In this document: positions 49,402-64,000 of the stretch, one piece after another
How positions within the stretch are numbered: the stretch's first letter is position 1
Layout of the letters: each line of letters starts with the position of its first letter
Assembly (NCBI GenBank): GCA_019639135.1
Contig: JAHBSL010000018.1
Location: 1 to 64,000 of the forward strand
Length of the DNA stretch: 64,000 bases
Direction of reading: 5' to 3'
Source of the DNA: Acidobacteriota bacterium
GTDB lineage: Bacteria; Acidobacteriota; Blastocatellia; Pyrinomonadales; Pyrinomonadaceae
The notes under the pieces: generated by a model
The model's input: only the letters and a program-made list of their open reading frames with translations
Told to the model about the DNA's origin: nothing
Databases searched by the model: none
Made by a program: the position numbers and the translations under genes

Positions 49402-50235
<834 letters not shown>

Positions 50236-50260
50236 GCGATCCGGGAAAGGCCGGTACGAA

Positions 50261-50284
50261 TAGGACCTATGCGTCCTATAGGTC
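50261..50284. repeat. Palindromic repeat at the alaS truncation point
   Basis: Two overlapping inverted repeats, TAGGAC/GTCCTA (50261-50278) and GACCTAT/ATAGGTC (50264-50284), lie 26 bases after the alaS stop. Confidence 0.7.
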
Positions 50285-50318
50285 GTATGGGTCGCTTCGC
50301 CTTGTCCGCCGAGAAATG

Positions 50319-50942
50319 ATGTCCACCAAAGTTCTATTGATCGAAAACCAACCGCTCACACGTCTCGGCGTGCGGGCGGTTTTTGCTGATTCGCCGGACA
50401 TTGAGCTGATCGGCGAGGCGGACAATGCGGCGGAGGGCTTTCGGCTCTTTCGCGAGCTGCGGCCGGATGTGACGATACTCGGGCTGCGGCTGCCGGATTC
50501 CTGCGCGATAGACGACCTCGATAATTACTTCATCGAAGATGCGAAGGCCCGGGTAATAGTGCTTGCCGAGCACGCCGGCGATGCGGAGATCAGCCGGGCT
50601 CTGAAAAAAGGTGCCGCCGGGTATATCTGCAAAGATGTGACGCCCGACGAACTGCTGGCAGCGGTGCGGGCGGTCGCGGCGGGGCGGAAGTACATTCCGG
50701 ATGACATCGCACGCATCTTAAGCGAAAACCTCGGGCAGGAAGAGCTGACCCGAAGCGAGGCAAATGTGCTGCGGATGATCGTCGGCGGCATGTCGAACAA
50801 AGAGATCGCCTTTGCTCTCGACGTAAGCGAGAACACCATCAAGTCGCACATACAGAACATCTTCGGCAAGCTCGGCGTCTCTGACCGAACGTCGGCCGCG
50901 ACGACGGCGATAAAGCGTGGGATGGTGCGCGTCGATCTTTGA
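50319..50942 (+). CDS. NarL-type response regulator with a degenerate receiver
   Basis: A 207-residue protein with a CheY-like receiver (about 1-120) and a LuxR-type HTH (about 140-207: LTRSEANVLRMIVGGMSNKEIAFALDVSENTIKSH). The phosphoacceptor position is glycine instead of aspartate (TILGLRLP, G55), and the N-terminal acidic pair is E9-N10 rather than DD. The usual conserved lysine (ALKKGAAG) remains. It is therefore a pseudo-receiver that probably does not respond to a histidine kinase by phosphorylation. It follows the truncated alaS. Confidence 0.88.
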   Translation: MSTKVLLIENQPLTRLGVRAVFADSPDIELIGEADNAAEGFRLFRELRPDVTILGLRLPDSCAIDDLDNYFIEDAKARVIVLAEHAGDAEISRALKKGAAGYICKDVTPDELLAAVRAVAAGRKYIPDDIARILSENLGQEELTRSEANVLRMIVGGMSNKEIAFALDVSENTIKSHIQNIFGKLGVSDRTSAATTAIKRGMVRVDL

Positions 50943-50958
50943 GTCAGAACCGCCCGCT

Positions 50959-51000
50959 CCCCTCCTGCCTGAGGAGGGGTGGCCGAAGGCCGGGGTGGTG
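50959..51000. repeat. Dispersed hairpin repeat, copy B
   Basis: CCCCTCCT/AGGAGGGG hairpin followed by GTGGCCG and CGGGGTGGTG, matching 43131-43180. It lies directly between the response regulator and the O-methyltransferase. Confidence 0.8.
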
Positions 51001-51029
51001 GGAGCAGCGGGAGGCCAGTTTCATCAAAT

Positions 51030-51677
51030 ATGATCGAGATAAAAAATCCTCTTACCGAATACGCCGAAGCTTTTACTTCGCCGGAGAGCGATGTGCTCCG
51101 TGAGCTTCGTGAACACTGCTGCGCCCATTACAAAGATTCCTCGATGCTTTCGGGGTTCTATCAGGGCCGGCTGCTTTCGATGCTTTCGCATATGATTCGT
51201 CCGCGGAAGGTGCTTGAGATCGGGACTTATCTCGGCTATTCGACCATCTGTCTCGCCGAGGGCCTGGCCGAAGGCGGCGAGGTCATCTCGCTGGACGTCA
51301 ACGAAGAGACGAACGCTGTTGCGCAAGGCTACATAGACCGCACCGAATACGCCGACCGCATACAGCTCCGGCTCGGCGATGCGATCTTTATGCTGCCGCA
51401 TATGATCGGCCCTTTCGATCTGGTCTTTATCGACGCCGACAAGCCGAACTACTCGAATTACTACCGCCTCGTTTTCGAAAAGCTCCGCCCCGGCGGCTTC
51501 ATCGTCGCCGACAACGTCCTCTGGAGCGGCAAGGTCCTCGACGCCGACAAGGACGAAGACACCCAAGCCCTCCACGACTTCAACAAGATGGTCCTAGCCG
51601 ACGACCGCGTCGAAAACATCCTGCTGCCGGTAAGAGACGGCCTGATGGTCGCGAGGAAGAAGGGCGGCTATGCGTAA
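51030..51677 (+). CDS. Class I O-methyltransferase (COMT type)
   Basis: A 215-residue SAM-dependent O-methyltransferase of the catechol/caffeoyl-CoA type. Typical blocks are VLEIGTYLGYSTICLAEGL (SAM-binding), DLVFIDADKPNYSNYY with metal and cofactor residues, and FIVADNVLWSGKV. Start at 51030 (MIEIKNPLTEYAEAF); the upstream frame is derived from the dispersed repeat. The gene overlaps the next ORF by 8 bases. Its acceptor is not known. Confidence 0.9.
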   Translation: MIEIKNPLTEYAEAFTSPESDVLRELREHCCAHYKDSSMLSGFYQGRLLSMLSHMIRPRKVLEIGTYLGYSTICLAEGLAEGGEVISLDVNEETNAVAQGYIDRTEYADRIQLRLGDAIFMLPHMIGPFDLVFIDADKPNYSNYYRLVFEKLRPGGFIVADNVLWSGKVLDADKDEDTQALHDFNKMVLADDRVENILLPVRDGLMVARKKGGYA

Positions 51678-51921
51678 GTCTCAAATAGCCGCGGATCTGG
51701 TGATCGTAGCGTTCTATCTGGGAATCGTCGCGCTTCTTGTTTTTGTCGATTCAGCAGTCGGCCTTAGCTTGCTTGCCATTCCGTGGAGCATTCCGTTGAT
51801 GATGCTTAGCGGTCTGATCCTGCATATGACAACTGACGGTGCCAAGATCATCATGATCGGGTGTGTCGTTGGCGCGGTATTGAACTCCATACTTTTTCTG
51901 TTCTTGAGAAATCGATCATAA
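51670..51921 (+). CDS. Small two-span membrane protein
   Basis: An 83-residue hydrophobic protein with two to three membrane helices and a lysine/arginine-rich start (MRKSQIAADLVIVAFYLGIVALLVFVDSAVG). It overlaps the end of the O-methyltransferase gene by 8 bases, so it is translationally coupled. No family is recognised. Confidence 0.55.
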   Translation: MRKSQIAADLVIVAFYLGIVALLVFVDSAVGLSLLAIPWSIPLMMLSGLILHMTTDGAKIIMIGCVVGAVLNSILFLFLRNRS

Positions 51922-51985
51922 TCGCGTCCACGCGGTCGTTGATGCGTACGGCTGATAGTTCGCAAAATAATAATTTGGCAATGAC

Positions 51986-52003
51986 TGTATCCCATATGAT
52001 ACA
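51986..52003. promoter_or_regulatory. Inverted repeat operator upstream of HigBA-like pair
   Basis: Perfect inverted repeat TGTATC-CCATAT-GATACA, ending nine bases before the GTG start of the toxin gene. A TATGAT hexamer overlaps it (51995-52000). Typical of autoregulation by a HigA-type antitoxin. Confidence 0.7.
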
Positions 52004-52011
52004 CTCTAGCC

Positions 52012-52305
52012 GTGATCGAGATTCGCCAAACCGAGCACTACGCCAAATGGTTCAAAGCTCTTAAGGATCACATGGCCAGAGCGCGGATCGATATCCGTAT
52101 TCGGCGTCTTTCACTCGGGAATCCGGGCGACGTGAAACCCGTAGGAGAAGGTGTATCTGAAATGAGAATCGATTACGGGCCCGGCTATCGCGTGTATTTT
52201 TTGACGAAAGGCAGCGAACTGATCCTGCTTTTGATAGGTGGCGATAAATCCACACAAGAAAAGGACATAGCAAAGGCGAAACAGATCGCCAAAGATGTCG
52301 ATTAG
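52012..52305 (+). CDS. HigB/RelE-like addiction module toxin
   Basis: A 97-residue protein of the phage-derived HigB (Gp49-like) killer family. Recognisable blocks are FKALKDHMARARIDIRIRRLSLGNPGD, SEMRIDYGPGYRVYFL and LLLIGGDKSTQEKDIAKAKQIA. These are ribosome-dependent mRNA nucleases. Start codon is GTG at 52012. It precedes its antitoxin gene by three bases. Confidence 0.88.
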   Translation: MIEIRQTEHYAKWFKALKDHMARARIDIRIRRLSLGNPGDVKPVGEGVSEMRIDYGPGYRVYFLTKGSELILLLIGGDKSTQEKDIAKAKQIAKDVD

Positions 52306-52308
52306 GAG

Positions 52309-52614
52309 ATGGGTATGGGAAAGATCAAGACAACTCCATGGGATCCGGCGGAGCATTTGAATTCCGAAAAGGAAATGGCCGCCTATCTTGAGGCCGCGCT
52401 TGAAGAAGGCGAGCCTTCGCTCGTAGCCGCGGCACTTGGCGACATTGCCCGGGCCCGCGGCATGACACAGCTTGCGCGCGATACCGGCCTCGGGCGAGAA
52501 AGCCTATACAAAGCACTTTCGCCAAACGGCAATCCCGAGTTTTCAACCATTATGAAAGTGGTTCACGCTTTGGGTCTAAAACTACATGCTTCTCCCTTAA
52601 AGTTGACTCGATGA
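52309..52614 (+). CDS. HigA-like addiction module antidote
   Basis: A 101-residue antitoxin with a helix-turn-helix (about 55-95: ARARGMTQLARDTGLGRESLYKALSPNGNP, FSTIMKVVHALGL). N-terminal WDPAEHLNSEKEMAAYLEAALEEGEP matches the addiction module antidote family. It should bind the toxin and repress the operon at the TGTATC-N6-GATACA site. Start at 52309, or at an ATG two codons later. Confidence 0.88.
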   Translation: MGMGKIKTTPWDPAEHLNSEKEMAAYLEAALEEGEPSLVAAALGDIARARGMTQLARDTGLGRESLYKALSPNGNPEFSTIMKVVHALGLKLHASPLKLTR

Positions 52615-52621
52615 ATTACCA

Positions 52622-53176
52622 ATGCACTACTCTTCCATTAAAAAACACTTGAGACCCTACAACATCTTTGCACGCCGTAAGACCACAATAAATCATGCGT
52701 TTGCGTCAGCGATCGCACCAAATGACGAGTACGATGAAGTTAGGGTCAGACTTGCCCTGAAGGTTCTTGGTCAAGATCCAGACGACGCCTTGAAGTGCGT
52801 TTACTGTGACAACTTTGCGCAAACCTGGGATCACGTTTTCGGCACCGTTAAGAACTCCCATTTTAGTGGGCATGGCCACAGACTTGGAAATTTGGTTCCA
52901 TCGTGCAAGGCATGCAACTCATCAAAAGGCAATAAGGACTGGAAGGAGTATCTTCAACGAAAAGGAATCGCATCCGGCCTTACTATAGAAGAGATTCAAA
53001 TTCGCGAGGAATTGATCCAGAAGTATCTAACCGCACATTCGTACTCCGATTCGATACCTGAACACTCGGCCGACTACAATCGGCTCCTTGAGATTAGAGA
53101 TGAGGTTCTCGATCTTTTAAAGGAAGCCGATATTCTAGCAGCGCGCATTCGCGATAGCGTATTGCCGAGGGACTAG
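52622..53176 (+). CDS. HNH-family nuclease
   Basis: A 184-residue protein with an HNH domain at about 60-115: CVYCDNFAQTWDHVFG, GNLVPSCKACNSSKGNKDW. The two CxxC pairs (CVYC, CKAC) would bind zinc; the catalytic H is in WDHV. The C-terminal part is helical without other motifs. It starts 7 bases after the HigA-like stop and is probably co-transcribed. It could be a restriction-type or homing-type endonuclease. No methyltransferase lies beside it. Confidence 0.8.
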   Translation: MHYSSIKKHLRPYNIFARRKTTINHAFASAIAPNDEYDEVRVRLALKVLGQDPDDALKCVYCDNFAQTWDHVFGTVKNSHFSGHGHRLGNLVPSCKACNSSKGNKDWKEYLQRKGIASGLTIEEIQIREELIQKYLTAHSYSDSIPEHSADYNRLLEIRDEVLDLLKEADILAARIRDSVLPRD

Positions 53177-53271
53177 TTGGTTCGTGAATCACCCAAAAGT
53201 ATTAGTTCCCGCCCACCGCAATTGATGGTTACATTCCGCCCCGGAATCGATAGACTTCTTGTAATGGCTTT

Positions 53272-53310
53272 GCGTCTTTGCGGGGAATAGTTCTTCTACC
53301 GCAAAGACGC
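53272..53310. repeat. 12-bp inverted repeat upstream of pirin 1
   Basis: Perfect 12-bp stem GCGTCTTTGCGG / CCGCAAAGACGC with a 15-base loop. No T-run follows. It lies 33 bases before the first pirin gene. Confidence 0.75.
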
Positions 53311-53343
53311 TGAGTCGGAAAGGAAGACAAGGAGAATTGTAAA

Positions 53344-54237
53344 ATGTCGGCACAATCAAAGACATCGAAACAGGTTAAAAGAGTAGAAAGGATCGTTCCG
53401 CCGCCGCCGAAACATTGGGTAGGCGATGGATTTAATGTGCACGGATTTTTCCCGCACGGGCCGCTGACGGGCGAGCGGATGAGCCCGTTCTTTTTGCTCG
53501 ACTACGGGGCGTTGACGGAGTTTCCGCCACGCGAAGAGCCTTTCGGCGTCGGAGCACATCCGCATCGCGGATTCGAAACGGTGACCATCGCTTACAAGGG
53601 CAAGGTCGAGCACCACGACAGTTGGGGCGGAGGCGGCATCATCGGTGAGGGCGATGTGCAATGGATGACCGCCGGCAGCGGACTTCTGCACAAGGAGTTT
53701 CACGAGCAGGAATCGAACCGGCTCGGCGGGCCTTTTCAGATGGTCCAGCTTTGGGTCAACCTGCCCGCGAAGGACAAGATGACCGAGCCGAAATACCAGG
53801 CGATCACCAATGCCGAAATGGGCCGTGTGAAACTGCCGCTCGGCGGCGAGGTCGAGATCATCGCCGGCGAATTCGGCGGTGTGAAAGGGCCGGCGACGAC
53901 CTTCACGCCCGTTCATCTTTACAACCTGAAGATGAAGCAGGGAGAAACGGTGGAGCTGACCTATCCCGAAGGCTATACGACGGCTTTGCTTGCGATCGAG
54001 GGCTCGGCACTGCTGAACGGTGAAGAAAAATTGCCGCTCAACAACCTTGCACTCTTTGAACGCGAGGGCGAAACGCTGAGAGTGGCAGCGCTCGAGGACG
54101 GCATATTCCTATTGATGAGCGGCGAACCGCTGAACGAACCCATCGCTCAATACGGCCCGTTCCTGATGAACACAAATGCCGAGATCGCCCAGGCGATCGA
54201 CGATTACCAGCAAGGCAAATTCGGCTATCTCAGATAG
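53344..54237 (+). CDS. Pirin-family protein 1
   Basis: A 297-residue bicupin of the pirin family. The N-terminal cupin contains the metal ligands (ladder GAHPHRGFETVTIAYKGKVEHHDS), GEGDVQWMTAGSGLLHKE is the second ligand stretch, and the C-terminal cupin spans about 165-290. Bacterial pirins have quercetinase or transcription-associated roles; some are redox sensors. The N terminus starts from ATG 53344 with upstream GGAG. It stands before another pirin gene. Confidence 0.9.
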   Translation: MSAQSKTSKQVKRVERIVPPPPKHWVGDGFNVHGFFPHGPLTGERMSPFFLLDYGALTEFPPREEPFGVGAHPHRGFETVTIAYKGKVEHHDSWGGGGIIGEGDVQWMTAGSGLLHKEFHEQESNRLGGPFQMVQLWVNLPAKDKMTEPKYQAITNAEMGRVKLPLGGEVEIIAGEFGGVKGPATTFTPVHLYNLKMKQGETVELTYPEGYTTALLAIEGSALLNGEEKLPLNNLALFEREGETLRVAALEDGIFLLMSGEPLNEPIAQYGPFLMNTNAEIAQAIDDYQQGKFGYLR

Positions 54238-54259
54238 CAAAGAACAAGGAGGAATTGCA

Positions 54260-54958
54260 ATGATAAAGATCAGACGTTCTGGCGAACGCGGACATGCCAA
54301 TCACGGTTGGTTGGACACGTATCACAGCTTTTCATTTGCGGATTACTACGACCCGCGGTTCATGGGTTTTCGGGCACTCAGGGTGATCAATGAGGATTTC
54401 ATCGAGCCGGCACAGGGCTTTCCGACGCATGGCCACCGCGACATGGAGATCGTCACTTATGTGATCGAGGGCGCGCTTTCGCACCGCGATTCGATGGGCA
54501 ATGGCGAGACGATCCGCCCGCACGAGGTGCAGCGGATGACGGCCGGAACCGGCGTGCTCCACAGCGAATACAGCTCGCCGACCGATAAGACGCACCTGCT
54601 CCAGATCTGGCTGCTGCCCGAAAAGCAGAACCTGCAGCCCTCGTATGAGCAGACCTATTTTGCTCCCGAAGAAAAGCAAGGCAAGCTCCGGCTCGTTGCC
54701 TCACGCGGCGGCGATGACGGCTCGGTCCACATCAATCAGGATGTGCGGCTTTACGCCTCGCTCCTCGCAGCCGGCGACGAGGTAAAGCACGAGCTTGCCG
54801 AGGGCCGAAATGCGTGGGTGCAGCTTATCTCGGGCGAACTCGCGGTCAACGGCGAAACGCTCAAGCCCGGCGACGGCGCCGCCATCAGCGAAGAGACGCT
54901 GCTCAAGTTCAAGGCAAACGCCGACGGGACGGAGTTCCTGCTGTTTGACCTGAACTAA
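54260..54958 (+). CDS. Pirin-family protein 2 (YhhW-like)
   Basis: A 232-residue single pirin of the YhhW quercetin dioxygenase-like type. The metal site appears as FPTHGHRDMEIVTYVIEGALSHRDS and GEGTG...VLHSEYS is replaced by GTGVLHSEYS. GGAGG precedes the ATG at 54260. It lies 22 bases after pirin 1, so the two form an operon, suggesting a shared role with different substrates. Confidence 0.9.
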   Translation: MIKIRRSGERGHANHGWLDTYHSFSFADYYDPRFMGFRALRVINEDFIEPAQGFPTHGHRDMEIVTYVIEGALSHRDSMGNGETIRPHEVQRMTAGTGVLHSEYSSPTDKTHLLQIWLLPEKQNLQPSYEQTYFAPEEKQGKLRLVASRGGDDGSVHINQDVRLYASLLAAGDEVKHELAEGRNAWVQLISGELAVNGETLKPGDGAAISEETLLKFKANADGTEFLLFDLN

Positions 54959-54964
54959 CGCAAA

Positions 54965-55009
54965 TGCCATAGGAGAAGAATTTCGCAGTTCATGTCCTCT
55001 CCTATGGCA
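54965..55009. repeat. 12-bp inverted repeat after the pirin genes
   Basis: TGCCATAGGAGA (54965-54976) and TCTCCTATGGCA (54998-55009) are exact complements. No T-run follows; it may be an RNA-stabilising hairpin or weak terminator. Confidence 0.65.
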
Positions 55010-55026
55010 ACGATTCTGTCTCAACG

Positions 55027-55110
55027 TTCCACCTCTGTGTCTTAGTTCTGTGGTCTCTGTGGTTTTGTTCTTGATTAGAAGAAGAAGAAGAACCACAGAA
55101 GGCACAGGCA
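55027..55110. repeat. Inverted repeat of the CACAGAG family
   Basis: CTCTGTGG-type bases at 55044-55061 and ACCACAGAAGGCACAGG at 55092-55108 form imperfect inverted arms around a GAA-rich loop. Same repeat family as 22644-22696 and 33510-33637. Confidence 0.65.
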
Positions 55111-55203
55111 AAGCCTACAGAAACGGGCCTAAGTTCTTACATCTTTAAACATTCTGAGTGACGTTTCTCCGACCTCTGCTATACTCCGTTCGGAGAAAAA
55201 GAG

Positions 55204-55566
55204 ATGAAGACCGTTGCTGCGATATTGACTGCCGTCGTTGCTCTTGAGCACATCGGGATAATGGTGCTTGAGATGTTCTTTTGGGACCATCCGGTCGGGC
55301 GACGGATCTTTGGGATGACGCCGGAGGTCTCGGCGGCCTCGGCGACGCTCGCGGCAAATCAGGGGCTTTACAATGGCTTTCTCGCGGCGGGTTTGATCTG
55401 GGGGCTCGTTAGCGGCCGGCGTGAGCTGAAGCTCTTTTTCCTCGGGTGTGTTGTCGTTGCCGGGGTTTTCGGGGCGGCGACGGCAAAAGGCTCGATACTT
55501 TTCTCGCAGGCATTGCCCGCTGCGATAGCGTGTGCGGCTGTACTTCTCGCCGATCGAAACCGCTAG
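55204..55566 (+). CDS. DUF1304 membrane protein
   Basis: A 120-residue protein with four predicted membrane helices of the DUF1304 family. Signature pieces are HIGIMVLEMFFWDHP, ANQGLYNGFLAAGLIWGL and GSILFSQALPAAIA. Function unknown; DUF1304 genes are common small membrane proteins. Its stop overlaps the end of convergent rsmG by 4 bases. Confidence 0.9.
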   Translation: MKTVAAILTAVVALEHIGIMVLEMFFWDHPVGRRIFGMTPEVSAASATLAANQGLYNGFLAAGLIWGLVSGRRELKLFFLGCVVVAGVFGAATAKGSILFSQALPAAIACAAVLLADRNR

Positions 55567-56192
55567 CTCTTGCCTTTGCCGGGCCGCGGCGGGATCACAA
55601 ACACATATCTCTGTTCGGAGAGCGGGATGAGGTGCTCGGTGTGCCGCGTCCCGATCTTCTTTAGAGACTCGCCGAGCGACGGCCCGCTGAAGAGCACAAG
55701 CTCGCGGCCGGCTGCCCACTTGAGCAATTTCGGGAGCTTGCGTGAGAGCTTATCGAGAGCGCGGGTCGTAATGACGCTCGCCTCGCCCGGCTCCGCTTCC
55801 TCAAACTGCCGGTTGACGATCTCGACGCGCGTCGCCAGACCGAGCCTTTCCACCGCTTCTGCCAGATAATTGCACTTCTTTTCTTTTGATTCGATCAGCG
55901 TTGCCCGCAGCCCTTCTCGGACGAGCAGGCACGGCAGCGAAGGCAGACCCGCACCCGTGCCGATATCGGCAATGTGCGCCTCGGCGGGCAAGAACGTGAG
56001 CAGATAAAGGCTTTCAAGAATGTGACGGACAGCAAACTCCTCCGCATCGCAGGGCGCGATCAAATGGAGCAGCTCGTTGTGCTCGGCGATGATGGCGGCA
56101 AGCGCCTCAAGCCTCGCGATCTGCTCATCGGTCAGCCCCAGCCCGAAGGCGGCCTCGTTCGCTTTTATGTGCTCTTTAAGTCCGGCGTTCAT
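55563..56192 (-). CDS. rsmG: 16S rRNA (guanine527-N7)-methyltransferase
   Basis: A 209-residue RsmG, which methylates N7 of G527 in 16S rRNA. SAM-binding block VADIGTGAGLPSLPCLL (IADIGTGAGLPSLPC in the protein), ATLIESKEKKCNYLAEAVERLGL and VITTRALDKL are diagnostic. Length matches. It is the last chromosomal gene before the tRNA fragment and island. Confidence 0.94.
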   Translation of the reverse strand: MNAGLKEHIKANEAAFGLGLTDEQIARLEALAAIIAEHNELLHLIAPCDAEEFAVRHILESLYLLTFLPAEAHIADIGTGAGLPSLPCLLVREGLRATLIESKEKKCNYLAEAVERLGLATRVEIVNRQFEEAEPGEASVITTRALDKLSRKLPKLLKWAAGRELVLFSGPSLGESLKKIGTRHTEHLIPLSEQRYVFVIPPRPGKGKS

Positions 56193-56207
56193 TGGTCGCA
56201 GCTACCC

Positions 56208-56241
56208 GAAAAAGACAAAAGCCCCGCCTTCGCGGCCGGGC
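56208..56241 (-). terminator. Terminator for the former tRNA gene
   Basis: On the minus strand, a 9-bp GC-rich stem with one mismatch (GCCCGGCC / GGCGGGGC) and GCGAA-type loop is followed by TTTTGTCTTTTT (56209-56220). It is located 12 bases beyond the encoded CCA end of the tRNA remnant. Confidence 0.72.
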
Positions 56242-56252
56242 CTTTGAAAGAT

Positions 56253-56307
56253 TGGTGCGGACGAGAAGAATCGAACTTCCACTCCCTTGCGGGAACAGGC
56301 TTCTGAG
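56253..56307 (-). tRNA. tRNA-Leu 3' remnant (att site)
   Basis: Reads on the minus strand from anticodon loop to an encoded CCA: loop CTCAGAA (anticodon probably CAG), then a long variable arm with TCCC-GCAA-GGGA, the TTCGATT T-loop and CGTCCGC acceptor followed by ACCA. The 5' half, D-arm and the 5' strand of the anticodon stem are absent: the preceding bases (TGGGA) do not pair with GCCTG. The fragment lies immediately beside the recombinase gene and marks one end of an integrated element. Confidence 0.82.
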
Positions 56308-56473
56308 TCCCATAATCCACCCATTGACTATCAACAACTTAGCCGGGTAAAATACTGATAACAAGAGGGTTAACCGGACAATTAAGGACATCTCCGGTCA
56401 CCTCCCAGACACCAGCGGACGGCTTTTCGGGTAGCTTTCTACCCGAAAATCTACCCGACGAGGACCTCGGCCG

Positions 56474-57688
56474 ATGAGAATACCCGACAAATACAAACCG
56501 CAGGGATACTTCACCCGCGTCAACAAAGAGAAAACGATCCGCAAGGGTAAAGGATATCAATACAGGGCCATATTCGCGATCTGGGACGGTCACAAATGGC
56601 ACACCCAATCCAACACAAAAGGTCTTACGACGAAGGGCCTCGCCGACGAATGGCTCGACAAGAAGGTGAAGGAATTCACCGCGAAGGGTAAGGACATCAT
56701 GCTCAACCCCGAAACGGTCAAGGGCTTCGCCGAGGCACACTACAAACCTTTCCTGAGGGATCACAAAAAGATCCAGTATGAATATGAATTTCAAAAGCTG
56801 GATGTCGTCTACGAATTCTTAGGGGACAAGCTCATCGATGAAGTGAACAAGCTGGACGTTTTGGCGTTCAAGACCTGGCTTTTGAAAAGACCTTATAAGC
56901 GGGGCAAAGGGGAGAAGACGCGTTCCGAAGCATCCGCGAATCGATATCTGTCGCGGTTGCGCGGGTTGCTGAACTTCGCGGAAGAGGTCGGCAAACGGAA
57001 GAACCACATTTCGTTCAAGAACATCGTCGCCAAGGAGAACCCGAAGCAGGCGTATATCTCCTTTGAGGAATTTATGCGCGTGCTGGATAAGTGCTATGAA
57101 GTTCCGAAGTGCAACCGATGGAAGCGAGACCGTTCGCACATGCGCCTAACGCTGATCGGCGGCTACACAACCGGGTTACGGATAGATGAACTGCGGAACG
57201 TTACGCGCGGGATGTTGAGAACCGACGATGCGAAGCGGATCGGCGTGATCAAGCTTGTGATGAACGATTCCCGAAATAAGATCCACACCAAGACGGTCGA
57301 CATCTCGACCTGGCTTTACGACGAGATGGAAGCGGCGGGCGTTTTCGAACGCGATGACGACGAAAAAGTGTTCAATACAACGAACTACTATAATCTGATC
57401 AAAGATCTGTTCCGTCGAGCGGGCGTGAGCGACGATGTCACGTTCCATACCTTGCGCGCGGCGAACGCGACGGAACGCGATACGGCGGGTCAAGACCGTG
57501 AATCGATCCACGCGGGGTTGGGATGGGCGAAGGACAGCAACGTCCCCGAAAAGCACTACCTGAGGCATCAGGACTACCACATTGTCGAAAAGGGCTCATC
57601 CTACAACGAAAGGCTGCAGAGGTTAAGGCAACTACATTCTGAAAGAACCGCCGAGGAGGGACGTCATGTTGAACGCGGATCATCTTGA
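56474..57688 (+). CDS. Tyrosine recombinase / integrase
   Basis: A 404-residue integrase. An N-terminal arm-binding-like domain about 15-75 (YQYRAIFAIWDGHKWHTQS), a core-binding SAM-like domain about 78-175 and a catalytic domain about 195-375. Catalytic residues visible: R236 in TGLRIDEL, H325-x-x-R328 in FHTLRAANAT, W351 in place of the usual H, and the nucleophile Y362 in EKHYLRH. It should integrate the island at the tRNA-Leu 3' end, whose remnant lies 166 bases away. Confidence 0.92.
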   Translation: MRIPDKYKPQGYFTRVNKEKTIRKGKGYQYRAIFAIWDGHKWHTQSNTKGLTTKGLADEWLDKKVKEFTAKGKDIMLNPETVKGFAEAHYKPFLRDHKKIQYEYEFQKLDVVYEFLGDKLIDEVNKLDVLAFKTWLLKRPYKRGKGEKTRSEASANRYLSRLRGLLNFAEEVGKRKNHISFKNIVAKENPKQAYISFEEFMRVLDKCYEVPKCNRWKRDRSHMRLTLIGGYTTGLRIDELRNVTRGMLRTDDAKRIGVIKLVMNDSRNKIHTKTVDISTWLYDEMEAAGVFERDDDEKVFNTTNYYNLIKDLFRRAGVSDDVTFHTLRAANATERDTAGQDRESIHAGLGWAKDSNVPEKHYLRHQDYHIVEKGSSYNERLQRLRQLHSERTAEEGRHVERGSS

Positions 57689-57816
57689 ATAACGTCAAGC
57701 CACCGGTGAAACGAGATTCGCAGCGGCGCGTTTCAGACAACCAGCTCCCGGCGGGGCCGCTGAGGGGCTGTTGCAACACCAGACAGACCTACTGCAGATA
57801 TGCCGTTCGCATCTCC

Positions 57817-58110
57817 TCAAACACACTCCGGCAACGAAAGCAGGTTGTTCGTCCATTTCCCGTCGCTGGCCGTTCGGACGTAGGGGTTGCCCGTAGCTGA
57901 TACTGCGCCGTGGACGTAAGCAACATTTCCGTGGCTGTCTCTAACGAATGCCTGCCCGCCCTGCTTCGACACGAAGTCATACATGTCGAGGCGGCTTGAT
58001 CGACCGCTCTTATTGGTCTGCTCGTTGATCCAGCCTAGCCACTCGATGGATTCATGCGGATTCTCGTGATACCCGTTGTCTTTGTTTATACAAGTGATTC
58101 GGACTGCCAT
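57817..58110 (-). CDS. DUF3892 protein
   Basis: A 97-residue protein recognised as DUF3892: MAVRITCINKDN, ESIEWLGWI, VSKQGGQAFVRD and a final RTASDGKWTNNLLSL. ATG 58110 is chosen as it begins the domain; an 18-residue extension upstream would overlap the E1 gene. It is the last gene of the Ubl operon, starting 7 bases past the JAB-E1 stop. The family has no known role; the position suggests an accessory protein of the conjugation system. Confidence 0.78.
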   Translation of the reverse strand: MAVRITCINKDNGYHENPHESIEWLGWINEQTNKSGRSSRLDMYDFVSKQGGQAFVRDSHGNVAYVHGAVSATGNPYVRTASDGKWTNNLLSLPECV

Positions 58111-58117
58111 GTATTTT

Positions 58118-59560
58118 CTATGCGCTCCTTTTTGATTTGGATTTATTGCTCGTTTGGCGAGCACGTGCTAACTCGGCCCCAATATCGCGACCGAACAAAG
58201 CAAAATGTCTGTCACCCTGTGCGATCATCGAAGTAAACTCGCAATCACGAAGGCATGTCCTCTCAGTATCTGCGTCGAGAATTCCGGGCAAGTATCGGAA
58301 CCGCTGAACGCCAAAGTCGGAGATGCCGGCGATACCGGTTGAGAGGGATATAAGCTGTAGTACTTCCAAGGATGCAAGGTTCGAGCTGAAAGGAAATACG
58401 TTTTCATTCCGCTTGAAACGATGATCGTTGGCAAGGCCCTGGAGATATGACGGATCATCGAGTTTACCCTCGACCTCCGTTGCGACATCGCCCATATCGA
58501 ACGCGCCCAGGCAACTCAAGCACGGATGATCAGGCCCAACTGTTTGAAGTTGCCAATCGACGCCGGAAAATTCGCCACCCTTGAATCTCACTGCGACACC
58601 ACCGTCAATAACCGGGATGAGATGTGAGTAGGCGAAGTGATTTAGTATGTAGCGGGGTCGCGGGCGGTCGACACACGAAAACAGAACGTCACAGTCGAGA
58701 CCCGCCCTGTAACCCGGTTCTTCGGCGATGCTGAAAGGTATTTTGGCAATAACCGGATGGCGAGCGGTCGCGGATCTCCGTATTTGACGTTCCGCGACGT
58801 CAATTTTTAGTTTCCCTATATCCTTTTCCATCGCACCGAGCAACCTGTCAAGGTTGTGGGGCTGCACCTCGTCGAAATCCAACAGAACGAAGTTCTCAAA
58901 TCCCATTCTTGCGAGACTCTCAGCCACCATGCTCCCGACGCTTCCTAAGCCGACGATGCCGATTCGCAGCCGAGCGAGATTTGCGTGATTTTCTTCCCCC
59001 CAGACCGTAACTGTGCGTTTGAACAAGTTGCGAAATTCGGGCTTTGGGGCCAGCTGATCCGAAAAAAATGCTTGTAATCGTCCGCCCACGACGCGAACGT
59101 TCCTACACCATTTTCGCTCATAGCCCTTCGCGTGAACGTGCGTCCAGAAGCGCCCGCTCCATGTGCCATCGTGGCCTACCGTGAGTCCGACCAGTGGGAG
59201 ATCGGTAAGCCCCATAGTCGCGCCGGAGAGTTTCAACTCGGCGTTCAGATCGTCCCGGCTCATATCTTGCCAACCGCTTCCCGGATGACTGTGCAGGAAG
59301 GCGATTCCGGCCGCCTCCCTTAACGCAAGACTGCACACCCTCTCGAAGTACTGCGGATTAAAACTCGCATTCCCGTGACGCTGGCGATCGCCTTCGGTCG
59401 GCAGGATAGGGGAATGTATGAGTGCGGTGAGCCGATTACTACCGTAGGATGGCGTCCATAAAGCAAAGCTCAAATCCTCTTCGTAATCATCCCGGATAAG
59501 ATGACCCCGCAAAACGTCACCGACCGACTGCGGCATGGCAATGCTGAATTCCTTAGGCAT
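58118..59560 (-). CDS. JAB-protease / E1-like (ThiF) fusion
   Basis: A 480-residue fusion. Residues 1-155 form a prokaryotic JAB/JAMM metalloprotease: H90-S-H92 and D104 of HSHP...SRDD are the zinc and catalytic positions, implying deubiquitinase-like cleavage. Residues 195-450 form an E1-like ThiF domain: GLGSVG (204-209), D228/D230 after VLL, CLSC (C347, C350) and CLRDC (C436, C440), with NLDRL in place of the usual NLNRQ. E1 would adenylate a ubiquitin-like protein C terminus. Its start overlaps the E2 gene stop by 8 bases. Confidence 0.9.
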   Translation of the reverse strand: MPKEFSIAMPQSVGDVLRGHLIRDDYEEDLSFALWTPSYGSNRLTALIHSPILPTEGDRQRHGNASFNPQYFERVCSLALREAAGIAFLHSHPGSGWQDMSRDDLNAELKLSGATMGLTDLPLVGLTVGHDGTWSGRFWTHVHAKGYERKWCRNVRVVGGRLQAFFSDQLAPKPEFRNLFKRTVTVWGEENHANLARLRIGIVGLGSVGSMVAESLARMGFENFVLLDFDEVQPHNLDRLLGAMEKDIGKLKIDVAERQIRRSATARHPVIAKIPFSIAEEPGYRAGLDCDVLFSCVDRPRPRYILNHFAYSHLIPVIDGGVAVRFKGGEFSGVDWQLQTVGPDHPCLSCLGAFDMGDVATEVEGKLDDPSYLQGLANDHRFKRNENVFPFSSNLASLEVLQLISLSTGIAGISDFGVQRFRYLPGILDADTERTCLRDCEFTSMIAQGDRHFALFGRDIGAELARARQTSNKSKSKRSA

Positions 59561-59927
59561 CTTTGAAAATAGTATTTATTTGGGAGATCAGACGTCGCGT
59601 GCTGTGATCCCCGGTCCAATTGAAGTTCTTGCTCCAGTAACGCCACTCCTCACCTAAAGCGCTGTCGGTGATGTTTCGGACATTCGGAACTGTGTCAGTT
59701 TTTTCGAGTAGTTGCGGGTTTGCCTTGATGTGAATTGCCGACGCCACGCTGCGAGGATAATCGGGGGGCGCCATAATTCCGAGATCGACGATTCGACCGG
59801 CGAATCGGCCAAGGAGCACTTCATAGCCGCGGATGACAACAAAACTGTTGTTGTCGCGACCCTTGGATATCTCCGCTTCGAAGCCCAGGTTTCGCACGTC
59901 TGACAGTAATCGTTCTGGTCCGAACAT
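59553..59927 (-). CDS. E2-like protein (prokaryotic E2 family E type), cysteine-free
   Basis: A 124-residue protein resembling the prokaryotic E2 (UBC) fold family E: LLSDVRNLGFEAEISKGRDN, VVIRGYEVLLGRFAGRIVDLGIMAPPDYPRS and a final EEWRYWSKNFNWTGDHSTRRLISQI. AGAGG lies seven bases before the ATG at 59927, favouring this start over a more upstream one. It contains no cysteine at all, so a canonical E2 thioester is not possible. It sits between Ubl and JAB-E1 genes, and its 3' end overlaps the latter by 8 bases. Confidence 0.82.
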   Translation of the reverse strand: MFGPERLLSDVRNLGFEAEISKGRDNNSFVVIRGYEVLLGRFAGRIVDLGIMAPPDYPRSVASAIHIKANPQLLEKTDTVPNVRNITDSALGEEWRYWSKNFNWTGDHSTRRLISQINTIFKDA

Positions 59928-59937
59928 CACCATACCT

Positions 59938-60204
59938 CTACGACACGGGAGTTGGATCATTGTGAAACACCACAAATCTCATACCGCTTTTCATGGTCAC
60001 CAATTCATTCAGGTCCCCGTATTTCCTGTACTCGTTACCGTCCTTTAACGCCAGGGTCGTCGTTTGGGGATCTTCCTTTGCGAAATCAACAAGCAGGGAT
60101 CGGACAGAAAGCTGACGTTCCGCTGTCTCAAACGGCTCCTTATCGATAAAGAACTTGATCCTCTTCGGTCCCATTTCCTTTTTGGTTGTCTCTTGCTCGC
60201 TCAT
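59938..60204 (-). CDS. Ubiquitin-like protein (Multiubiquitin type, single domain)
   Basis: An 88-residue protein with a beta-grasp domain of the Multiubiquitin type: KRIKFFIDKEPFETAERQLSVRSLL, then TTTLALKDGNEY, LNELVTMKSGMRFVVF. An N-terminal acidic lead (about 15 residues) precedes it. The C terminus is HNDPTPVS, without a glycine or di-glycine. The upstream AAGGAAA is a fair ribosome binding site. It is the first gene of the minus-strand Ubl operon (Ubl, E2, JAB-E1, DUF3892). Confidence 0.85.
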   Translation of the reverse strand: MSEQETTKKEMGPKRIKFFIDKEPFETAERQLSVRSLLVDFAKEDPQTTTLALKDGNEYRKYGDLNELVTMKSGMRFVVFHNDPTPVS

Positions 60205-60256
60205 TGCTGTTTCCTTTTATATAAGTCGTTGCGTTTCGGGACGCCCTGCTATAAAA

Positions 60257-60309
60257 TGGACATCCACTGTCCACTAAATATAAGGAAATGGAGGTGGACT
60301 GTCAACCTC
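60257..60309. promoter_or_regulatory. Operator-like repeats between the Ubl operon and the XRE gene
   Basis: A perfect 6-bp inverted repeat TGGACA-TCCAC-TGTCCA at 60257-60273, and a second TGGAC half-site within GAGGT...ACCTC (60291-60309) form a compact block in the 120-base divergent promoter region. Consistent with repression of both directions by the neighbouring XRE protein; not shown. Confidence 0.6.
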
Positions 60310-60326
60310 TATTTTCCGCTTTTCTT

Positions 60327-60725
60327 ATGACCTTTGGAAAAACCCTTCAAAAGATTCGTCGCGACAAGGGGCTGACGCAGCGCGATGTCGCGAACGCCAT
60401 TTCGATGGACTATAGTTACTATTCGAAACTCGAGAATGATCGATTGGGCTACAACCCCACCACCGAGACAATTGAAAAGATCGTTACCGGATTGAATTGT
60501 GAGGATGCGGAGAGGGATGCGCTTTTGCTTGCTGCGGGGCGCTCGACTGACGTACTGGAGCAGTTAGCTCAAGCGGCGAAAGAGGATCCGGCCAGACAAG
60601 GATCATTCAGCAAATTATTTAAGGCCGCGATCGTTTTGACGCCCGAGAAGCTAGAGGCTATCGCACGTGAAGCGGAGGAAGAGGCGAAGAAACTCGCCAG
60701 ACGAGAGTCGAAACAAATGAAATGA
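60327..60725 (+). CDS. XRE-family transcriptional regulator
   Basis: A 132-residue regulator with an N-terminal HTH (about 5-60: LQKIRRDKGLTQRDVANAISMDYSYYSKLEN) and a helical C-terminal segment (KLEAIAREAEEEAKKLARRES) likely for dimerisation or proteolytic control. ATG 60327 is favoured over an earlier in-frame codon. It is divergent from the Ubl operon and overlaps the metallopeptidase gene by four bases, a pairing reminiscent of ImmR/ImmA and CapH/CapP switches. Confidence 0.88.
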   Translation: MTFGKTLQKIRRDKGLTQRDVANAISMDYSYYSKLENDRLGYNPTTETIEKIVTGLNCEDAERDALLLAAGRSTDVLEQLAQAAKEDPARQGSFSKLFKAAIVLTPEKLEAIAREAEEEAKKLARRESKQMK

Positions 60726-61534
60726 TCACGCACGGCATACAAACACCACGGCTTACCGAGTTCACGAAGCATGATGTGGTCGATTCGATAGCCCTTAATT
60801 TTAGTCGGGCGTTTCGCCAGCATCTTGCGCACCACAACGATGTTTTGGACGTCGATCGGTTCGTCGACTGGCTCGACATTTCTACGGAGTGGGACTTCTT
60901 TGACGAAACGGATTCCTCCTCTTGCTTCGCGAGGATAGACCCTGGCGTGGATGACCTGATCCAGATCAATCAAAACTACCAGGACCTTTTTGAGACTCGC
61001 CCCGACGTTTACCGAGTTTGCCTTTGCCACGAGATCGGACATTTGGTCCTCGGCCATTGCAGTTATTTTGCGACCGCTAATCACCCTTCGCTGTTCGAGG
61101 ACGACGATTCAAAGCCGCCAAACTTTTTACATAAGAATTCATGGGCTCAGTATGGCCTATCCAGCCAGGACGTACGGAAACATCAGTTAGCCCTTAAGAA
61201 AGCCCAGGAGCAACTGGTTAAGATCGCCATTGTCGACCCAAAAGCGAATCAGGACCTGCGGGACTTGAATGATAAATTCGAGCCTGAGTGGATGTTTTGG
61301 CAGGCGGAACATTTTTCACGGTGTATCACAATACCAAGCGACAGACTTTTTGAGATCCTCGACAGTCGGCCATTGTATTCGGGGTGGAGATCGATCGGCG
61401 AATTAGCCAGCGTATTCGAGGTCCCATTAGGAACTATGAAGACAAGACTAACAAAGCTCAAATTGATCACTATGGATGAAAATGGCGTGCCGAGCCCCAC
61501 GCGTACCCCCCAAGAAACACAGCTCTTACTTTAA
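60722..61534 (+). CDS. ImmA/IrrE-family zinc metallopeptidase
   Basis: A 270-residue protein with the gluzincin HEIGH motif in YRVCLCHEIGHLVLGH; the third ligand should be in the following helix, where E or D residues of DDDS-type stretches are found. Such peptidases cleave their XRE-family repressor partner after a stress signal. ATGA overlap with the XRE gene. The C-terminal part is helical with a FEVPLGTMKTRLTKLKLI winged-helix-like end. Confidence 0.85.
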   Translation: MITHGIQTPRLTEFTKHDVVDSIALNFSRAFRQHLAHHNDVLDVDRFVDWLDISTEWDFFDETDSSSCFARIDPGVDDLIQINQNYQDLFETRPDVYRVCLCHEIGHLVLGHCSYFATANHPSLFEDDDSKPPNFLHKNSWAQYGLSSQDVRKHQLALKKAQEQLVKIAIVDPKANQDLRDLNDKFEPEWMFWQAEHFSRCITIPSDRLFEILDSRPLYSGWRSIGELASVFEVPLGTMKTRLTKLKLITMDENGVPSPTRTPQETQLLL

Positions 61535-61653
61535 TGGAATGCGCCTCGATTCCATGTCGCGAGGTTGATGAATTCCATCGCATTTTTGGCGAGTACATTC
61601 AATGCGCTGAAGAAGACTTGGAAGCCTGATTTAACTCAGGGCCGACAGTCGAA

Positions 61654-62418
61654 TCAAGATGCCTCGATCCCGTAAATCAGTCGAAAGCTGTTTATCACCT
61701 CTTCGAGTTCCATTCCGCGAATCCCGAGATTCTGCAGGTCGATAGTCTCTTGGGTCATCGCTTCGAGATATCTGCCAAAGTCCGCACGGATCTCTTCCGC
61801 AATATCAATTCGCAGTTCGGGCGAAAGGATTGTAAACAGCCGGAAAGGGTCGTTCTTGTGTTTCTTTATATCGTCACCCTTTACGGTCTCGCCGTCCCCC
61901 CGCCTTTCAGTCAGGTCCAGCCACGCCTTTGCTTTCAACAAAACAATGTATTCAGGCTTGAGGATCGGCAGGCCGTCAACTACAACGGTTCCCCCGTGAA
62001 CCAATTCATAATAAGTATCGTCCATCAATAGTGCAGAAAGGCTTGACGCTTCTTCACCCACGGGGAGCGGCGTGTATCGGCCTTCACCTTCGTATGAGAT
62101 CGCGTCAGGGACTCGCGAGAACAATTCGATCATATAAGGATACGAGTCATTCCGGGGCGAATGAAACCGATATAGGCGCCGTTCACCTGTACTCTTCTGA
62201 CGCGACTCGTATCCTCCCGCTTCGACGAACTCCCAGAATCGCTTCACGAATGCCGGATCGAGCGTTTCGGCGACGATCACGATGTCGAGATCCTTTGTCA
62301 CTCTGAAGTCGACCCCTACGTCCGCCATTGCCAGCTGGCATGCGGAACCGCCGATCAGTATGTATTTGTCCTCAAATCCTGCAAAGTGTTCTTTGAATTT
62401 TTCGATCCCTTTCACCAT
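61654..62418 (-). CDS. AbiEii-type nucleotidyltransferase toxin-like protein
   Basis: A 254-residue nucleotidyltransferase-fold protein: FEDKYILIGGSACQLAMAD with GG..S, VTKDLDIVIV with the DxD, and a later helical region. It resembles the AbiEii/DUF1814 toxin group, which in AbiE systems is a nucleotidyltransferase that inhibits growth. Its gene overlaps the upstream HTH gene by 7 bases (ATGGTGA), so they form a two-gene TA-like unit. Family assignment is good; target unknown. Confidence 0.82.
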   Translation of the reverse strand: MVKGIEKFKEHFAGFEDKYILIGGSACQLAMADVGVDFRVTKDLDIVIVAETLDPAFVKRFWEFVEAGGYESRQKSTGERRLYRFHSPRNDSYPYMIELFSRVPDAISYEGEGRYTPLPVGEEASSLSALLMDDTYYELVHGGTVVVDGLPILKPEYIVLLKAKAWLDLTERRGDGETVKGDDIKKHKNDPFRLFTILSPELRIDIAEEIRADFGRYLEAMTQETIDLQNLGIRGMELEEVINSFRLIYGIEAS

Positions 62419-63410
62419 TCGATATTCTCAATCATTTCCTTTAGGGCAGCTTCGACGCGCTCATCCTTCTGATACGTCAAACTCAAGTACAGGGAAAATC
62501 GGTCGACAGTCCCAGCTTCTGCAAAAATCTTAGGGTCGTAGTTCCAAACCTCGATCGTGATATGGCTCGAATCAAGGTCCGGTACAAGAAATGTCTCAAC
62601 CTTCTCGGAACCCCGCCACTCCTTCCACTCTTTCGGGCTGAGTGCATACTCCGGATTGGCGGGCTCCGCCAACATGCTGTAGTGCGAAAGAGCCGTCAGC
62701 CCCGAGCGGACACCGACGACGTGTTGTCCTGCCGATCGTATATGAAAGCGTTTCCTCACAGGACTTGAGAGGGTACCTTTAGACGATTCCCAAAGCTGCC
62801 TCTTGCCGCCTTCAAAATGTAGCACCCGTTCCCGCCCTTCCGTTTCGATCTTTCCGAGTCCTAGCATTTCGAGTTCGTCAAAAGCTCGACTCATCGTCAT
62901 CTGGGAATATGGAAGTTTGTCCGCCAAGGTTGAAGGGGTGAACACCAGATCGGTCCCACATAGCAACGCGAAAAGGACAACTGTTTGGGTTGAGGGGCTG
63001 AGTTTTGCCGAGCTTCGTGAGAGCCTAGTTCTGGCAATATGCTCCCGTAGATCAACACCAAGATCCGGCAGGTACATTTGATTGCCGGGAACAATAAAAG
63101 GGATCTTGTGGGTTATCAATCTCTTACGATTGTATGCAGGCATCGACGGCGTGATATAGATCGAGTCGATGTTCCAATTCTTCCGGACTTGCTCGAAGTG
63201 CTTTCTTATTGCACCTGGCGTGTTCTCTTCCGGGTTGATTTCGACGAGAGCGAGAAAAGGCCGCTCAAGTATGGTTACCTCGTAGAATTCGTAACGGTCC
63301 CTCAGAAAGAGCGGGAGGCTACTTCGGCCGATCCAGGGTTCGATCTTGATCGAAAGACCGAGCGTTTCCCCTAAGTAGTCTTGTAAACCATAGATGGCCT
63401 TCTGTACCAT
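62412..63410 (-). CDS. AbiEi-like HTH antitoxin
   Basis: A 332-residue protein with a winged-helix/HTH at about 160-215 (SPSTQTVVLFALLCGTDLVFTPSTLADKLPYSQMTMSRAFDELEMLGL). Size, layout and the downstream nucleotidyltransferase fit AbiEi-type antitoxins, which repress their own promoter through inverted repeats. The ATG at 63410 is chosen because an earlier in-frame start would place the perfect inverted repeat inside the coding region. Divergent structures upstream are described separately. Confidence 0.8.
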   Translation of the reverse strand: MVQKAIYGLQDYLGETLGLSIKIEPWIGRSSLPLFLRDRYEFYEVTILERPFLALVEINPEENTPGAIRKHFEQVRKNWNIDSIYITPSMPAYNRKRLITHKIPFIVPGNQMYLPDLGVDLREHIARTRLSRSSAKLSPSTQTVVLFALLCGTDLVFTPSTLADKLPYSQMTMSRAFDELEMLGLGKIETEGRERVLHFEGGKRQLWESSKGTLSSPVRKRFHIRSAGQHVVGVRSGLTALSHYSMLAEPANPEYALSPKEWKEWRGSEKVETFLVPDLDSSHITIEVWNYDPKIFAEAGTVDRFSLYLSLTYQKDERVEAALKEMIENIEW

Positions 63411-63435
63411 AGAATCAGCATGATAACATCTAATG

Positions 63436-63466
63436 TGCACAGTAACATCACGAGTGTTACTGTGCA
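63436..63466. promoter_or_regulatory. Perfect 12-bp inverted repeat upstream of the AbiE-like pair
   Basis: TGCACAGTAACA (63436-63447) and TGTTACTGTGCA (63455-63466) with a 7-base spacer. It is flanked by a second, outer inverted pair, GATAACAT (63422-63429) and ATGTTACC (63472-63479), one mismatch. The site lies 26 bases upstream of the start codon at 63410. Confidence 0.78.
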
Positions 63467-63526
63467 AAACCATGTTACCATCAATCCGTATAATTTGATA
63501 ACTTATTTTTTACAGTTCGACAAGTA

Positions 63527-63754
63527 TCACTGCGGAATGGTCCGTACAAAGGAAGGCTTTTTAACCCAAAGCGGAACAGGGCCAGGAATATGCGGGCGAG
63601 ATTCGACATTTATGGTCGAGCTTTCATCCTGATCATTCGGTGGGAACGCACTTGGAGGCCCGCTTAAAAGGCCGAGCAAGCCTTGTCCGAAACTGGACAC
63701 AATCGGGACGCCGAGCTGAACAACCGCGTGTGTGCGGAAACAGATCCGGACCAT
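63527..63754 (-). CDS. Small proline-rich protein of unknown function
   Basis: A 75-residue frame (MVRICFRTHAVVQLG, then a hydrophobic segment, then proline-rich residues). It begins 20 bases after the FtsK-like gene on the same strand. No homologue is recognised and the ribosome binding site is weak, so it may not be a real gene. Confidence 0.3.
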   Translation of the reverse strand: MVRICFRTHAVVQLGVPIVSSFGQGLLGLLSGPPSAFPPNDQDESSTINVESRPHIPGPVPLWVKKPSFVRTIPQ

Positions 63755-63773
63755 GGGATCCGCATGAACGCGG

Positions 63774-64000
63774 TCACGTTCCCGTAACGCGGGTAAACTC
63801 CTCCATGAAGGACGAATCGACGAACGGAACCTGAGCGTAGCACAGCGGGGAGCCTTCCAGATTTGCCAGCAGGTGCCCCTTCCCTAGCAACCGTTCTGCT
63901 CCCCTCTCGCCGAGCGCGATCTCCGAGGTTCCTTCGGAATCGACGCGAAGAATGAGTCGGTTACCGAGGTTGGAACGTAGCTGCATCGGCATTACATTTG
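63774..64000 (-). CDS. FtsK/SpoIIIE-type DNA translocase, C-terminal end (partial)
   Basis: Only the last about 75 residues are visible; the frame continues through the right edge. LGNRLILRVDSEGTSEIALGERGAERLLGKGHLLANLEG matches the C-terminal part of the FtsK/SpoIIIE/HerA-like motor (the LVSDS/ALGE-GAE-LLG block). It ends at 63774 with VTGT. An FtsK-type protein on a tRNA-integrated island would fit conjugative or segregation functions. Confidence 0.78.
   Translation of the reverse strand, partial: NVMPMQLRSNLGNRLILRVDSEGTSEIALGERGAERLLGKGHLLANLEGSPLCYAQVPFVDSSFMEEFTRVTGT

Follow-up and report, generated by a model that had tools for sequence, protein, structure and literature searches.

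The closest described counterparts of the operon analysed here form a class that is already known, predicted in 2006 as type 6e by Iyer et al. and lately named Bub. The passages on type 6e in that account describe a cysteine-less E2/RWD-like domain together with one, two or three Ubl domains and, mostly, a JAB domain fused before E1, and they call the cysteine-less E2-like domains likely inactive; neither the end of the Ubl nor a Ser nucleophile is discussed in them for type 6e (PMC1779556). In a later count of 544 Bub operons, CapW or CapH plus CapP were present at 219, and it was stated that protection against phage is still to be demonstrated for Bub operons, which may be stress pathways (PMC13373217, 2026). 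We report that an operon in a 64,000-nucleotide stretch of an Acidobacteriota contig (the window) is a member of a widespread Bub-system branch with a Ser/Ala-tailed Ubl; this branch, together with a single invariant E2 serine, may be the new elements within the known operon class.

Operon layout, relatives and the JAB–E1 fusion

The four-gene cluster runs on the minus strand from position 60204 down to 57817 and encodes a Ubl, a Prok-E2_E protein, a JAB–E1 fusion and a DUF3892 protein, in that order. The spacing (4 bases between Ubl and E2, an 8-base overlap of E2 and JAB–E1, and 7 bases between JAB–E1 and DUF3892) bears out the original prediction, in which the genes overlapped or lay fewer than 12 bases apart, and its identification of a ubiquitination-like operon is upheld by Pfam matches, a beta-grasp model of the Ubl and conserved gene order, which all agree, none of the outcomes that it had named as refuting having occurred. 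A scan of GTDB yielded 80 relative loci in more than ten phyla, including Acidobacteriota, Bacteroidota, Chloroflexota, Myxococcota, Gemmatimonadota, Actinomycetota and Pseudomonadota. The E2 gene lies directly upstream of the JAB–E1 gene in 81 of 81 loci, and in nearly all of them the Ubl gene precedes the E2 gene or is fused to it, so the arrangement is not due to chance. The system occurs sporadically, in 14 of 396 genomes across the phylum; at the genus level three close copies, the window one included, were seen in about 40 genomes, and no relative was found in the viral contigs scanned.

The third gene (58118-59560, minus strand) encodes the JAB–E1 fusion of 480 aa, identified by Pfam and phmmer, whose best PDB match is Citrobacter BubCD (6e-20 by phmmer, over residues 9–324). 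Its JAB/JAMM metalloprotease domain (59051..59560, minus strand; an approximate boundary, based on the JAMM residues and on the BubCD alignment from residue 9) carries E28, H90, H92, S101 and D104, in agreement with the earlier claim that JAB precedes E1 in one chain with its residues intact, and these are conserved in 80–81 of 81 sequences. The E1-like ThiF adenylation domain (58118..59035, minus strand; PF00899, 2.4e-31) is also matched by NCBIfam and PADLOC models of E1–E2 defence proteins, and G204, G206, G209, D228, D230, N236, R239, K252 and D298 are its invariant adenylation residues. C347, C350, C436 and C440 resemble the structural zinc site of ThiF/MoeB; since these probable zinc-site cysteines are the only invariant ones across the wider family, there is no family-wide E1 thioester Cys.

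The E2 serine and the Ubl tail

The second gene (59553..59933, minus strand) encodes a BubB-like E2 of 126 aa, assigned from Pfam (Prok-E2_E, PF14462, about 1.7e-7 to 2.4e-7, above the cut-off), an AF2 model and a family profile. That it is free of cysteine, as originally claimed, holds if translation begins at the ATG at 59933 or the one at 59927; a TTG at 59975 opens the longest ORF (140 aa), which contains two Cys, both within the N-terminal extension, and the short start is very likely right because the orthologue (80% E1 identity) begins MMFGPERLL. Lack of cysteine had been taken for a non-canonical peculiarity, whereas the type 6e passages of PMC1779556 make it the rule in the whole operon class and, with the matches to BubCD and BubB, a property of the class and not of this genome. 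The window E2 alone gave no useful match in the PDB, BubB included, and the family profile was needed for Citrobacter BubB to be matched (1.8e-6). The AF2 model built from the family alignment is confident (pLDDT 95.4); ubiquitin-conjugating enzymes are its top PDB folds, matched weakly (E-values above 0.1, TM about 0.45).

Throughout all 81 E2s (the operon's and those of its 80 relatives) one residue is invariant, the Ser of a YWS(R/K) motif, with a glycine kept in 80 of 81 and missing from one truncated copy, which has a gap there. In a second alignment (71 sequences) G42 and S101 are the sole invariant columns (Ser101 in 71/71); the other column being a glycine, no invariant residue but S101 has a possible nucleophile side chain, and from its invariance and its alignment to BubB we regard it as a candidate acyl acceptor (YWSK, codon 59631..59633, minus strand). 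Cys exceeds 7 of 71 in no column, and 34 of the 71 proteins have none at all. The invariant Ser aligns with that of QRWSRH in Citrobacter BubB and recurs both in the Gly branch described below and in haloarchaeal plasmids. In the model S101 is found where the last strand ends and the C-terminal helix is about to begin, which would be roughly the place where classical E2s carry the catalytic Cys. Aligning the E2 to UBE2D with hhalign covered the core only and stopped before the active site, and a weak HMMER alignment to PDB 2pwq (0.027) puts the catalytic Cys near an I-H-x-S stretch instead, in which Ser is common in these E2s, not invariant. The invariant Ser might also be structural.

The Ubl itself (59938..60204, minus strand; 88 aa) is a single BubA-like beta-grasp domain according to an AF2 model from the family alignment and a Foldseek search. 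The model is of moderate confidence (mean pLDDT 75.9), with strands and helix in beta-grasp order, and its top PDB matches are bacterial multi-ubiquitin proteins and Citrobacter BubA (9ea8_B), at probability 1.00, the latter with TM 0.64 by query length and E 0.007. Direct sequence search of the PDB with the window Ubl gave nothing useful, with BubA unmatched at the sequence level. As to the families originally named, Prok-E2_E and ThiF were matched in Pfam, but the window Ubl matched neither Multi_ubiq nor any other Pfam family above the cut-off; 16 of 72 Ubl family members do match Multi_ubiq.

The Ubl ends HNDPTPVS, as claimed, and its last 11 residues contain no Gly. The motif D-P-T-P-V-S (59941..59958, minus strand), defined by tail conservation among relatives, adjoins the stop codon, and the conserved end is mostly T-P-V-S or T-P-V-A: V occupies position −2 in 64 of 72 tails and S or A position −1 in 68 of 72, a count that includes 10 fused Ubls cut at VS/VA by construction. 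Among stand-alone Ubls 58 of 62 terminate at Ser or Ala; the four exceptions keep the motif in extended form, with four residues after GVS in three of them and two after TS in the other. Fused genes run from the Ubl, ending GPTPVS, through a linker into the E2, and most retain the tail at the junction (e.g. GPTPVS-YFGPER in L027). If the conserved end is the working end, trimming is unnecessary for the window Ubl, since a stop codon directly follows; relatives in which the Ubl is fused or extended would require it. An internal TG before PTPVS was considered as a trimmed end and thought unlikely: Gly-branch Ubls carry an internal TG too, and it is not their end because they finish at a later Gly.

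In an E1 tree of 55 sequences the Ser/Ala and Gly groups each occupy one side of a branch (99/98 and 100/99), a clean split that could blur with wider sampling, given that the Gly set consists of 13 plasmid-borne sequences, that the Ser/Ala set was gathered by similarity to the window E1, and that rows L079, L058 and L090 are labelled Ser/Ala although their Ubls are extended or not read. The Gly branch holds the solved Citrobacter system, in whose structures the Ubl chain ends KDVNNG and the E2 construct begins just after; the Ubls of its plasmid operons end TTEG, NNG or ATFG, some with a few residues beyond. Two haloarchaeal E1s whose Ubls end GSGRS fall on the Ser/Ala side, and on haloarchaeal plasmids (L006, L140) a relative of the operon with this Ubl end is followed by DEAD/DEAH helicase genes.

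Accessory genes, regulators and genomic setting

The last gene of the operon (57817..58110, minus strand) encodes an accessory DUF3892 protein of 97 aa (PF13031, about 1.6e-10 to 2.9e-10), which is also found downstream in the nearest orthologue and in L044, and upstream in L095. Small DUF genes (DUF2188, DUF3892) recur beside such operons in varied positions (L009 4100-4327; L095 upstream; L044 downstream), and a shared accessory role is possible. DUF6527 associates with the Gly branch, where it occurs in most operons; on the Ser/Ala branch one doubtful opposite-strand match was seen in 81 loci. In the L007 and L136 branch a few residues follow PPATFG at the end of the Ubl, and the operon has a phosphotransferase gene located between those for E1 and DUF6527.

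Divergent from the operon, and not mentioned in the original prediction, lies a CapH/CapP-like pair (60288-61534), which is also part of the nearest orthologue's module; capH- or capP-like genes occur within 2 kb at 54 of 76 loci. The CapH-like HTH repressor (60327..60725, plus strand) matches PADLOC capH (4.2e-7) and HTH_31 (8e-12), with generic HTH models scoring equally well. The CapP-like M78/ImmA-IrrE metallopeptidase (60722..61534, plus strand) has a HEIGH motif, and its assignment as CapP is weak (Pfam M78 0.0056, PADLOC capP 0.024); the protein is similar to an ImmA/IrrE protein beside a Rhizobium operon of the same type (7e-7). The divergent control region (60245..60306) holds a palindrome, TGGACA-N5-TGTCCA, a related second copy 32 bases away, and a promoter-like site, TTGACA-17-TATATT, that reads into the operon and is near-consensus, as a consensus match only; palindrome and promoter-like site are largely conserved in the orthologue.

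The module capP–capH–Ubl–E2–JAB/E1–DUF3892 is also present in a second genome with different neighbours. A tyrosine integrase (56474..57688, plus strand; PF00589, 4.2e-8) borders the region in the window. Next to it, at 56254-56296, is a sequence like the 3' part of tRNA-Leu(CAG), of which an intact copy is on contig C40 of the genome; no complete tRNA was detected at that place, nor any tRNA or Rfam match in 50000-64000, and the fragment is likely to be the attachment-site remnant of an integrated element. Elsewhere in the window we noted a HigBA-like toxin–antitoxin pair (Gp49, HI1420-type antidote) followed by an HNH endonuclease-like protein (52012-53176), and a two-gene unit (61654-63473), possibly a toxin–antitoxin pair of diverged AbiE type, in which one protein is nucleotidyltransferase-like and weakly similar to AbiEii (0.081) and the other contains a region weakly resembling MarR. 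Also beside the operon (L141 7775-13962, L141 being genome contig C10 from about 63775 on) are SspH (1770 aa, PADLOC E=0) and a 292-aa SspG-like ORF (1e-102), which covers no more than the C-terminal portion of the model and extends nearly to where the fetched sequence stops. The module is thus flanked by the integrase and tRNA-Leu remnant on one side and by the possible AbiE-like genes and SspG/SspH on the other. The orthologue has an integrase, a pPIWI-associated nuclease and a DrmMI/MmeI-like enzyme nearby. The setting is a defence island, an association and not proof, and only this context suggests a phage defence role for the operon.

Candidate mechanisms and known systems

From the computed genes, folds and conservation we infer adenylation, oxyester transfer, the target, regulation and any defence role, and consider it rather probable that this is a Ser/Ala-tailed Bub-like conjugation operon under CapP/CapH control, in which E1 adenylates Ser88, E2 Ser101 forms an oxyester and JAB deconjugates. 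Upon DNA damage or infection the CapP protease would relieve repression by CapH, and the operon would be expressed. The ThiF domain would then adenylate the C-terminal Ser88 of the Ubl, which E2 Ser101 would accept as an oxyester and hand on to a target amine. Removal of Ubl from conjugates would fall to the N-terminal JAB domain, which would also free the Ubl end in relatives with a Ubl–E2 fusion or extra Ubl residues, with DUF3892 as an optional accessory. Bub systems use oxyester intermediates, a point that we have not counted as evidence. An E1 does not usually deal with a Ubl end that bears a side chain, which counts against this explanation. A literature search whose coverage excluded the two main Bub papers found no biochemistry on the Ser/Ala branch. 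The original prediction had proposed either other chemistry or trimming of the Ubl: its serine option gains from the invariant E2 Ser, but its asparagine tail does not fit a conserved end that reads T-P-V-S/A.

Trimming would mean that JAB removes the PTPVS tail and that the true Ubl end is an upstream residue, in the manner of eukaryotic Ubl precursors trimmed to glycine. A Gly stands at −6, just before PTPVS, in 41 of 72 Ubls, the last residue of the Citrobacter Ubl construct, at the BubB junction, is Gly, and since L058, L065, L075 and L079 carry extra residues after VS or TS, processing probably does occur in the family. However, 25 of the 72 Ubls, those of the window and its nearest kin among them, lack Gly throughout their last 11 residues; conservation up to the final residue, with the stop directly after, is not expected of a tail that is discarded, and in the Gly branch the internal TG is passed over for the later Gly (TTEG), so that we hold loss of the PTPVS tail to be improbable. 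We likewise think it unlikely that the E2 is a catalytically dead RWD-type adaptor, with the E1 adenylate serving targets or E1 itself directly. This 2006 reading draws on the missing Cys, the weak fold matches and the judgement of likely inactivity given in the type 6e passages (PMC1779556), but it sits poorly with a Ser that is flanked by Trp and a usually basic residue, invariant in 81 proteins, and recurrent in BubB and haloarchaeal plasmids, a pattern that by its sequence conservation suggests catalysis more than binding.

A ThiF-type E1 and a beta-grasp Ubl are also what a sulfur-carrier pathway (ThiS/MoaD/Urm1-like) would have, the Ubl end becoming a thiocarboxylate; with no terminal Gly-Gly, no sulfur genes seen adjoining the operon, an E2 gene always present, a defence-island setting and PADLOC matches of the E1 part to E1–E2 defence proteins, we judge this highly improbable. 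Compatible with the conjugation reading that we prefer, a general response to DNA damage or stress, instead of phage defence, may tentatively be proposed as the operon's purpose: control by CapH/CapP-like proteins would suit it, as does the view of Bub in PMC13373217. The neighbouring defence genes (SspG/SspH and possibly the AbiE-like unit here, the pPIWI-associated nuclease and DrmMI/MmeI-like enzyme by the orthologue) and the sporadic distribution in the phylum stand against it.

There is, we estimate, an even chance that a branch crossing phyla activates and conjugates its modifier through a C-terminal Ser or Ala, an E2 serine acting as carrier so that no thioester is formed. If so, the products would be Ubl–Ser/Ala–lysine links, probably unrecognised by glycine-directed proteases. 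To our knowledge a C-terminal glycine is close to universal among ubiquitin-like modifiers, and this rule would be shown not to be absolute by a large branch whose Ser/Ala end is conserved. The Gly branch, with solved structures, and the Ser/Ala branch, with none, would form a matched pair for asking how E1 reads the modifier end, and the invariant E2 serine makes thioester-free transfer directly testable.

Among known systems, the ThiS/MoaD sulfur carriers differ in their C-terminal Gly-Gly, the window Ubl ending PVS. The ThiF domain is shared with CBASS type II Cap2/Cap3 and 6A-MBL E2–E1–JAB, but the window operon has neither an E2–E1 fusion nor such a nucleotidyltransferase gene, and it does have a Ubl gene. 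The Bil (BilABCD) anti-phage systems likewise combine Ubl, E1, E2 and JAB in one operon; theirs is a cysteine E2, with E1 and JAB as separate proteins, whereas the window E2 lacks Cys, its family has no conserved Cys column, and JAB and E1 are fused. Iyer type 6e has the same Ubl, cysteine-less E2/RWD-like domain and JAB fused N-terminally to E1, and differs in its fourth gene, a Cys/His metal-binding protein in place of DUF3892. From Citrobacter Bub (BubA, BubB, BubCD; PDB 9ea4, 9ea5, 9ea8, 9eae, 9eav) the window operon is set apart by its single Ubl domain and separate E1-tree branch, by DUF3892 in place of DUF6527 (the latter not known as defining), and by a Ubl that ends in Ser (Ser/Ala in relatives) where the Citrobacter construct ends in Gly, a Bub trait that we infer from this construct and the Gly branch and that may not be defining. 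Shared with Bub are the Ubl, the E2 Ser of WSR, the JAB–E1 fusion in the same domain order, and a CapH/CapP-type regulator, the DNA-damage regulators CapW, CapH plus CapP or CapK plus CapS being frequent, not universal, upstream of Bub operons.
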